The notes under the pieces were generated by a model that ran no database searches, was not told the DNA's origin, and saw only the letters and a program-made list of their open reading frames with translations. A stretch of 64,000 nt of DNA, taken from NCBI GenBank assembly GCA_913057725.1, contig CAJXOS010000001.1, positions 1 through 64,000 of the forward strand, in the 5' to 3' direction. Numbering within the stretch: position 1 is the first letter of the stretch; every line of letters starts with the position of its first letter. The position numbers and the translations under genes were made by a program. Below, in pieces: positions 42,390 to 58,852 of the stretch. This DNA is from an uncultured Lewinella sp. (lineage in GTDB: Bacteria; Bacteroidota; Bacteroidia; Chitinophagales; Saprospiraceae).

Positions 42390-42405
42390 TGTTCCACGTG
42401 GAACA
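42390..42405. promoter_or_regulatory. parS-like ParB-binding palindrome, copy 1
   Basis: TGTTCCACGTGGAACA, perfect 16-bp palindrome; one substitution from the canonical TGTTCCACGTGAAACA. Confidence 0.85.
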
Positions 42406-42481: not shown

Positions 42482-42497
42482 TGTTCCACGTGGAACA
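42482..42497. promoter_or_regulatory. parS-like ParB-binding palindrome, copy 2
   Basis: Identical TGTTCCACGTGGAACA 92 bp downstream of copy 1. Confidence 0.85.
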
Positions 42498-56404: not shown

Positions 56405-56928
56405 AGGCTAAATTAACTGGACAAAAGTTTTCCACACGCTATTTTCAGCGATTTGCCTAAGTACGTAAAAAACAGCACTTTATCCAAATCTATTTTCCAC
56501 AGCAGGCGTGGATAAACTCGGGGAAAACTTCTAGTTTTTTGACATTCACTAACAGCTCTTAACAGAACTATGACAACGAATAATCCGATTTGCCGTTTTT
56601 GGTGAAAAACTATTTCAGTTATTGACATTAAAAGGTCAAAAATCAAGGCCCGTTTTTAAAAAAGTTATTCTGTTGACAATTATTAACGGTAGTGTGAATA
56701 AGTTTGCATTCCCTTGTTTTATAAGGGTTCTGGCTGTGGAGAAAATGTGTATAGCAAAGGAATTACTCTTAACAGTGAATTAACCTAGCATTAACCTAGA
56801 TTTTTCTCCACCAAACTAACAGCACTAATAATAATAAGGGAATTCAAAAAAAATTATAATAATCTATTAATAGGGACTATTACCGAACACGGTTTTGAAG
56901 CCTATTTGAAGTATAAAAGCACACTTTT
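56405..56928. other. oriC: Candidate replication origin (oriC): DnaA-box-like cluster plus AT-rich segment
   Basis: TTTTCCACA at 56428-56436 and 56493-56501; TTATCCAAA 56480-56488; TTATCCACG (rc) 56507-56515; TTCTCCACA (rc) 56735-56743; AT-rich tract about 56820-56873. Confidence 0.6.
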
Positions 56929-58008
56929 ATGAGCAGTATGTCTGCCAAGGCCGGGAATTCTGAATTTCATTATCGACCAATAGTCAAATGGTGGCTTGTC
57001 GTGGGTGTTATCATGATTATCGGCCAGGTTGTAATCGGGGGAATTACCCGATTGACTGGATCTGGCTTGTCTATCACTAAGTGGGAGATCGTAACGGGAA
57101 CACTTCCTCCGATGAATGCCGAGCAATGGGAATCAGAATTTGATTTGTATAAGGCTACCCCTCAATATGAGAAGATAAACGAGGGAATGTCTATCGGCGA
57201 ATTCAAGTTTATTTACTTCTGGGAGTATTTTCATCGCCTCTGGGCGCGTTTAATGGGATTTGTGTTCGCAATCCCCTTTGTCATCTTTTGGCGCAAAGGA
57301 TGGCTTGACAAGCCTTTAATGCGAAGATTAGGGATTACGGTGCTCCTGGCGGCCATCGTAGCTTCTTTTGGCTGGATAATGGTCGCTAGTGGGCTTATAG
57401 AGCGTCCCTGGGTAAATGCTTACAAGTTGACAATGCACTTATCCTTAGCCTGTATACTGTATGCATACCTTTTATGGACTGTATTTAAGGTGTTTCAACC
57501 CAATCCTGTAGGTTTTCCACATTCAGTGTTGAAAACCTGGGCCAAGGTCATTACCGTACTCACTGCGATACAGATTATTCTGGGTGGAATTATGTCTGGC
57601 GCTAAAGCTGGACTGTTCTATCCTACGTGGCCAGATATGAACGGAGAGTTGATTCCTTCGATACTTCGTGATGGAAGTATGTGGAATGTGGAAAACTTTG
57701 TGAACTATGACGCTACTTTGTTCCTTTCTGCATTCATTCAGGTTACCCATAGAGGAGTAGCTTACTTACTGACAATCATTGTTTTATACTTTGTATGGCG
57801 ACTGCTAAAAAGTACGTCAGCAGGAATTATTCACAAAGCTGCATACCTGTTAGTAAGTATGTTGATAATTCAAGTATTGTTAGGAATCCTTACCGTTATT
57901 AACTGTGTAGGAGTTATTCCGGTAGGGTTAGGTGTAATGCACCAGGCAGGAGCAATATTCCTATTATCTACAGTACTATTCGTTGATTATCAACTGCTAC
58001 GAGAGTAA
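56929..58008 (+). CDS. ctaA: COX15/CtaA family heme A synthase
   Basis: IGGITRLTGSGLSITKWEIVTGTLPP; FKFIYFWEYFHRLWARLMG; HRGVAYLL; LGVMHQAGAIFLL. Confidence 0.92.
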   Translation: MSSMSAKAGNSEFHYRPIVKWWLVVGVIMIIGQVVIGGITRLTGSGLSITKWEIVTGTLPPMNAEQWESEFDLYKATPQYEKINEGMSIGEFKFIYFWEYFHRLWARLMGFVFAIPFVIFWRKGWLDKPLMRRLGITVLLAAIVASFGWIMVASGLIERPWVNAYKLTMHLSLACILYAYLLWTVFKVFQPNPVGFPHSVLKTWAKVITVLTAIQIILGGIMSGAKAGLFYPTWPDMNGELIPSILRDGSMWNVENFVNYDATLFLSAFIQVTHRGVAYLLTIIVLYFVWRLLKSTSAGIIHKAAYLLVSMLIIQVLLGILTVINCVGVIPVGLGVMHQAGAIFLLSTVLFVDYQLLRE

Positions 58009-58013
58009 TGCAC

Positions 58014-58072
58014 AAAAGACTGTGGAAAACATGTATATAGTTGCCTATGCAAGTAGTTTTCCACAGTCTTTT
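58014..58072. repeat. 17-bp perfect inverted repeat between convergent ctaA and scpA
   Basis: AAAAGACTGTGGAAAAC (58014-58030) and GTTTTCCACAGTCTTTT (58056-58072); could be a bidirectional terminator and/or DnaA-binding element. Confidence 0.9.
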
Positions 58073-58090
58073 CCACAAATGTGTAAAGTC

Positions 58091-58852
58091 CTATTCTTCT
58101 TCGTCTTCGGGATAAGGTTCGAGCCAAAAACTATTTACTTCGGCTCCACCCACCAGACGGATTTGCTGCAGATTGAGCAGCTCTAGAAGGCCAAGAAAGG
58201 TAACGATAGCATGAATTCGGTTTTTACAGCCACCAAAGACATCAATAAAGCTAGGACGTTCTCCACCGGCGTGAACAAGTGTGAGGATGTTCTGCTGTTG
58301 ATCTTCAATCGAGTAATTGAATTGAACAATTTGGTGTACTGTCGGACGTCGATTAGCGTCTTCCATCCGCTGCATAACCCGCTCAAAAGCACGTAAAAGT
58401 TTAAAGAGGGTAACTGATTCCAGCTCTGCATCTACCAATGCTTTCGTAGCTATCTGCTGAAGTTCTCCACTTACATTTCCACGATAGTTACGCAGACTAC
58501 GACTTTCCTCTAGTTGGCGCATTTCCTCCAATACGCTTTTGTATCGCTTGTATTCGAGTAGGCGAAGAACTAGTTCTTCCCGCGGATCAATTTCGTTGCC
58601 TTCTTCATCAACAGGTTTGCGAGGAATGAGCAGTTTAGCCTTGATCCGACATAGAGTAGCCGCAACAAGAACAAATTCACTAGCCAGGTCAATATCCATC
58701 TCTTCCATCTGCCGAATGTAGTCCAGGAAATCATCCGTAACTTTGGAGATCGGGATATCATAGATATCGAGCTCATCTCGTTCGATGAAGAACAAGAGCA
58801 GATCGAAAGGACCTTCAAACTGTGGCAACTTAATGGTATAAGTCGTGCTCAT
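58091..58852 (-). CDS. scpA: Segregation and condensation protein A
   Basis: YTIKLPQFEGPFDLLLFFIERDELDIYDIPISKVTDDFLDYI; VLVAATLCRIKAKLLIPR. Confidence 0.94.
   Translation of the reverse strand: MSTTYTIKLPQFEGPFDLLLFFIERDELDIYDIPISKVTDDFLDYIRQMEEMDIDLASEFVLVAATLCRIKAKLLIPRKPVDEEGNEIDPREELVLRLLEYKRYKSVLEEMRQLEESRSLRNYRGNVSGELQQIATKALVDAELESVTLFKLLRAFERVMQRMEDANRRPTVHQIVQFNYSIEDQQQNILTLVHAGGERPSFIDVFGGCKNRIHAIVTFLGLLELLNLQQIRLVGGAEVNSFWLEPYPEDEEE

Follow-up and report, generated by a model that had tools for sequence, protein, structure and literature searches.

Replication origins of Bacteroidota usually lie far from dnaA and are hard to locate for that reason. In Bacillus subtilis and Helicobacter pylori, oriC is bipartite, with clusters of DnaA boxes flanking a spacer gene, usually dnaA, and the unwinding element in one of the two clusters (PMC4285127). 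The basal unwinding system (BUS) consists of tandem DnaA boxes, a spacer and DnaA-trios (PMC8287927). In Bacteroidetes, oriC is commonly far from dnaA, with predicted remote origins such as that of Prevotella intermedia (PMC4755523), and a further study warns against taking dnaA as a reliable origin marker (PMC10197239).

The locus described here, in a stretch of 64,000 nucleotides of an uncultured Lewinella sp. (the window), resembles the bipartite origins of B. subtilis and H. pylori in having one gene flanked by two box regions some 1.1 kb from each other, an AT-rich unwinding element in one of these regions and a total length below 2 kb. Unlike in these origins, the spacer is ctaA and not dnaA (which is usual as spacer, not obligatory), boxes also lie within the coding sequence of the spacer, and dnaA is 2.35 Mb away in a closed congener. 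The unwinding module is like the BUS in its box with at most two mismatches, its four NAN trios, the first being 3'-GAT-5', and the AT-rich DNA behind them, and its spacer of 12 nt compares with a published peak of 10-13 (PMC8287927), whereas in most of the family the second box is degenerate (CTAACA), with TCCACA retained in some more distant Bacteroidia. As in the predicted remote origins of Bacteroidota, a skew transition and a box cluster are found far from dnaA; linkage to parS, a family-wide unwinding motif and the placement at ctaA go beyond those predictions.

Results

A cluster of DnaA boxes around ctaA

The locus comprises genes for SRAP (PF02586), CtaA (PF02628), ScpA (PF02616) and an RsmI-like methylase, and its features are listed in Table 1. 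The original prediction had reported seven exact copies of TTTTCCACA in about 1.65 kb. All seven are present at 56428-58077, with the fifth starting at 58021 and not at 58022, and they are the full set of the window, in agreement with the earlier inspection by eye. The three weaker boxes described as interleaved (TTATCCAAA, TTATCCACG and TTCTCCACA) exist, and TTATTCACA is a further weak box beside them.

Table 1 Features of the candidate origin and of the linked parS sites (positions in the window).
Feature	Position	Strand	Remarks
parS TGTTCCACGTGGAACA	42390..42405	.	
parS TGTTCCACGTGGAACA	42482..42497	.	
Left (main) region of candidate oriC, SRAP-ctaA intergenic	56405..56928	.	524 bp, 33% GC; boxes, conserved blocks and unwinding module
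DnaA box TTTTCCACA	56428..56436	+	kept in four congeners
Conserved block TAAGTACGTAAAAA	56458..56471	.	congener comparison
Weak box TTATCCAAA	56480..56488	+	
DnaA box TTTTCCACA	56493..56501	+	intact in 3/4 congeners, one copy substituted
Weak box TTATCCACG	56507..56515	-	
Weak box TTATTCACA	56693..56701	-	within conserved block TGTGAATAAGTTTGCA
Weak box TTCTCCACA	56735..56743	-	
Whole family unwinding motif, profile R1 match	56801..56855	+	
Box 1 of unwinding module, TTCTCCACC	56804..56812	+	2 mismatches; family consensus TTATCCACA
12-nt spacer AAACTAACAGCA	56813..56824	+	contains decayed second box CTAACA; TCCACA in some relatives
AT-rich candidate DNA-unwinding element	56823..56885	.	duplex-stability calculation
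DnaA-trio complement CTA ATA ATA ATA	56825..56836	+	opposite strand 3'-GAT TAT TAT TAT-5'
ctaA, COX15/CtaA heme A synthase, spacer gene between box regions	56929..58008	+	PF02628, E 2.6e-90
DnaA box within ctaA	57513..57521	+	codons GGT TTT CCA CAT; second reading phase in relatives
DnaA box within ctaA	57687..57695	-	AAT GTG GAA AAC; residue 253; same place in 18/64 ori-linked ctaA
Right region of candidate oriC, ctaA-scpA intergenic	58009..58090	.	
DnaA box, right-hand region	58021..58029	-	
DnaA box, right-hand region	58057..58065	+	
DnaA box, right-hand region	58069..58077	+	tandem with 58057..58065 box

Shuffled versions of the window contain 0.87 +/- 0.94 copies of TTTTCCACA, and seven copies were reached in none of 100 shuffles. 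The complete genome-wide lists hold 86 copies of TTTTCCACA and 69 of TTATCCACA in 7.19 Mb. The genome rate predicts 0.018 copies of TTTTCCACA per 1650 bp, which gives a probability of ~1e-16 for seven or more and of ~1e-12 for the seven-box cluster once a whole-genome scan is allowed for. The cluster at 56428-58077 is unique in the genome and the biggest of its kind in the 7.2-Mb assembly. Equal density of the 9-mer at other loci, named beforehand as evidence against an origin, was not found in these lists, which contain only one other tight cluster, with five boxes in 100 bp, 5' of nrdB-nrdA.

When the SRAP-ctaA gap was compared among four congeners, the 56428 box, TAAGTACRTAAAAA, the 56493 box, TGTGAATAAGTTTGCA and TTTTTCTCCACCAAACTAACAGCACTAATAATAATAAGGG were kept, TTTTTCTCCACCAAACTAACAGCACTAATAATAATAAGGG being the best-kept block. 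Two of the kept blocks are not DnaA boxes, namely TAAGTACRTAAAAA (56458-56471) and GTTATTGACATTNAAANGTC (about 56618-56640); judged from their conservation, they are possible sites for another origin-binding protein, or a promoter.

GC skew, parS sites and the position of dnaA

A GC-skew minimum elsewhere had also been named as a counter-argument; in the 113.8-kb contig, the cumulative skew reaches its minimum at 56,586, within the SRAP-ctaA gap, and the fine skew minimum of the closed congener (G001) lies at 2,349,196, in the orthologous gap. The window's genome is a draft of 340 contigs, and whole-chromosome skew was obtained from 42 sampled 20-kb stretches of G001, for which the best two-breakpoint fit places the origin at 2.35 Mb and the terminus opposite, at 6.03-6.10 Mb (2.35 Mb plus half of the 7.508 Mb is 6.10 Mb).

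Furthermore, only two parS sites were found genome-wide, both 14 kb from the box cluster. parS and ctaA are on one contig, at most 34 kb apart, in 14 of 19 family genomes, and on separate contigs, several of them short, in the remaining five; in other families, the linkage was seen in none of the eight genomes having both.

DnaA is encoded by one gene each in the window's genome (G000, contig C164, a different contig from that of ctaA) and in G001, where dnaA lies at base 427 and is separated from the box cluster by 2.35 Mb. An origin at dnaA was considered and rejected: the first 20 kb of G001, which begins at dnaA, contain no exact TTWTCCACA, and one copy each occurs in the last 20 kb of G001 and on the dnaA contig of G000.

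A conserved putative unwinding module upstream of ctaA

According to a duplex-stability calculation, the least stable 50-bp duplex within 55-60 kb begins at the trios (56823), so that an AT-rich candidate unwinding element adjoins the boxes. TTTTTCTCCACCAAACTAACAGCACTAATAATAATAAGGG fits the published BUS rule (box with at most two mismatches, spacer of 0-16 nt, at least three NAN trios) with the two-mismatch box TTCTCCACC, a 12-nt spacer and the four trios CTA ATA ATA ATA, the first being 3'-GAT-5'. The module's own box is thus a poor DnaA-box match in the Lewinella genus, and of the tandem boxes expected before the trios the second is a remnant here and distinct in relatives, e.g., at loci L089 and L189.

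A strict search for CTA-led trios overlooked most relatives; the core common to the family upstream of ctaA became visible when sequences were compared side by side and by a profile. The majority consensus reads TTATCCACA-AATTAACAC-CCC-TAATGATGA, followed by T/A-rich DNA, and since it starts with TTATCCACA, a canonical DnaA box emerges from the alignment. The profile scores at least 15.5 at 66 ctaA loci, every match having the orientation of ctaA and preceding the matched start by 69-414 nt, and at most 8.4 at every other locus, including Lutibacter and other families. Since the motif was trained upstream of ctaA, its presence there is not independent evidence, whereas its genome-wide rank and its parS linkage elsewhere are: in the window's genome the match at 56801-56855 ranks first (E 2e-8, runner-up 0.17), and in the congener G001, excluded from training, the top match is also at ctaA.

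In untrained genomes of other families, the profile matched near parS at distances of 1.3 kb (G021), 1.5 kb (G019, weak), 4.3 kb (G023) and 6.5 kb (G028), and a class-wide search added matches 1.3 kb (G046), 4.3 kb (G049) and 17 kb (G065) from parS, weaker matches in G131 and G134 without parS linkage, and no confident match in most genomes of the class. In families whose origin is not at ctaA, the match instead adjoins parS, which suggests that the module moves together with the origin and that linkage to ctaA is a trait of the Saprospiraceae. As an order-wide rule, linkage to ctaA was discarded, the ctaA genes of other families being without boxes. At two loci in another family of the order (L186 and L190, from G140 and G065), the motif lies directly upstream of a gene that we take to be quinolinate-synthase-like (nadA), suggesting on sequence grounds that origin neighbours may have been exchanged between families. 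Outside the order, the motif and TTAATAGTAATAG-like trios recur in other Bacteroidia families (L188, L189 and L191), and at L189 the motif contains a pair of TCCACA boxes at a spacing of 11 bp. A class-wide origin profile seems feasible.

DnaA boxes within and behind ctaA

CtaA of the window shares 86% identity with its Lewinella cohaerens counterpart, and best hits point to a Lewinella-like member of the Saprospiraceae as the source of the DNA. Among 64 ori-linked loci, exact boxes reach 2.3 per kb upstream of ctaA, 0.73 inside it and 4.9 in the 150 bp behind it, over a background of 0.03-0.06 per kb at 1.5-5 kb from the gene; at 37 control ctaA loci there were four boxes upstream and none inside or behind. 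The 64 ori-linked genes contain 48 intragenic boxes, compared with 4.6 +/- 2.0 expected from 300 synonymous shuffles (maximum 10), a count that overstates the number of events because kinship makes the genes non-independent. The coding sequence of ctaA is thus constrained at the DNA level. At about residue 195, the box occurs in two reading phases: nine genes encode FPH/FPQ-like residues there, and seven encode VIHN-like ones. Protein constraint does not account for one DNA word being present in both phases.

Behind ctaA, an exact box is present at 23 of 26 loci of close relatives and at 29 of the 64 loci overall. Distant Saprospiraceae often have no exact boxes there, and the right-hand part may for this reason be dispensable.

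In the Lewinella genus, scpA (58091-58852), which encodes a condensin partner, directly adjoins the candidate origin; in two gut Bacteroidetes, no known condensin was found (PMC10197239).

Discussion

Together, our data make it very probable that 56405-58090 is the chromosomal replication origin, the reading put forward in the original prediction: the skew minimum and the skew switch in the closed congener, the proximity of parS, the unwinding module and conservation across the family all bear it out. The most suitable position for the unwinding site is about 56804-56885, a refinement of the earlier, broader assignment. Overall, the locus has the appearance of a bipartite oriC in which ctaA takes the place of dnaA as spacer. 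The intragenic boxes and those behind the gene seem to form a second part of this origin, and we lean towards a functional right-hand part.

At such an origin, DnaA from the distant dnaA gene would bind high-affinity boxes flanking and inside ctaA, and a filament would extend from the box at 56804-56812 onto the trios at 56825-56836, opening the AT-rich stretch up to about 56885, where the helicase would load and from where two divergent replication forks would depart. A second DnaA sub-complex probably assembles on the boxes within and behind ctaA and would be joined to the first by looping, in the manner of bipartite origins, and initiation may need this right-hand part. We give an even chance to the most far-reaching version, a family-wide bipartite origin with a metabolic spacer gene, in which the boxes are under DNA-level selection that sets loop residues of the enzyme (FPH or VIHN, by phase) and the enzyme gene is a structural part of oriC.

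Alternatively, oriC might be continuous and confined to the left SRAP-ctaA gap, with the boxes inside and behind ctaA acting as auxiliary DnaA-titration or regulatory sites outside the melting complex. Such an arrangement, which we regard as possible rather than probable, agrees with the module, the skew minimum and the weakest duplex all lying in the left gap and with the sparser right-hand boxes of distant relatives; what speaks for the bipartite reading instead is that close relatives have a dense, well-placed set of right-hand and intragenic boxes, that these boxes do not extend beyond the same 1.7 kb and that those inside the gene are retained against codon expectation.

It is very improbable that the origin lies at another locus and that the whole cluster serves either to titrate or control DnaA, as datA and DARS do in E. 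coli, or as a ctaA promoter under DnaA regulation. Box clusters may regulate, as the five boxes in 100 bp at nrd illustrate, but the skew switch, parS and the unwinding module coincide at ctaA and not at the nrd cluster, and the boxes are not limited to the ctaA promoter but continue within and behind the gene. The nrd cluster was itself considered as an origin and dismissed, having five boxes yet neither a skew switch nor a motif match; located at 12200-12300 of contig C22 of G000 (L032:8201-8301) and kept in the congener (G001:297506-297606), it is likely, from its placement, a DnaA-controlled promoter of nrdB-nrdA (ribonucleotide reductase), resembling the DnaA control of nrdAB in E. coli. 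Chance, or a base-composition artefact by which AT-rich gaps accumulate TTTTCCACA, could appeal to the SRAP-ctaA gap having only 33% GC, and is a negligible explanation in view of the shuffles and the probability for the stretch. Moreover, the genome-wide count of TTTTCCACA is not above that of the reversed control 9-mer, so that the enrichment is particular to this locus, and conservation of the boxes across the whole family refutes an origin by chance.

Remote origins of Bacteroidota were already known, and the arrangement at ctaA appears to be unreported in the literature searched, where we found no relevant paper on ctaA with an origin; DoriC may already have a Saprospiraceae entry. Our analysis provides an explicit origin candidate for the Saprospiraceae that is open to test, together with a profile of the unwinding motif that also picked out sites linked to parS in further families of the Bacteroidia. 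In addition, the locus lets one ask whether bipartite origins need dnaA as spacer, and it offers a natural case of origin elements and a protein-coding gene on the same bases, in which the trade-off between DNA and protein constraint can be addressed.
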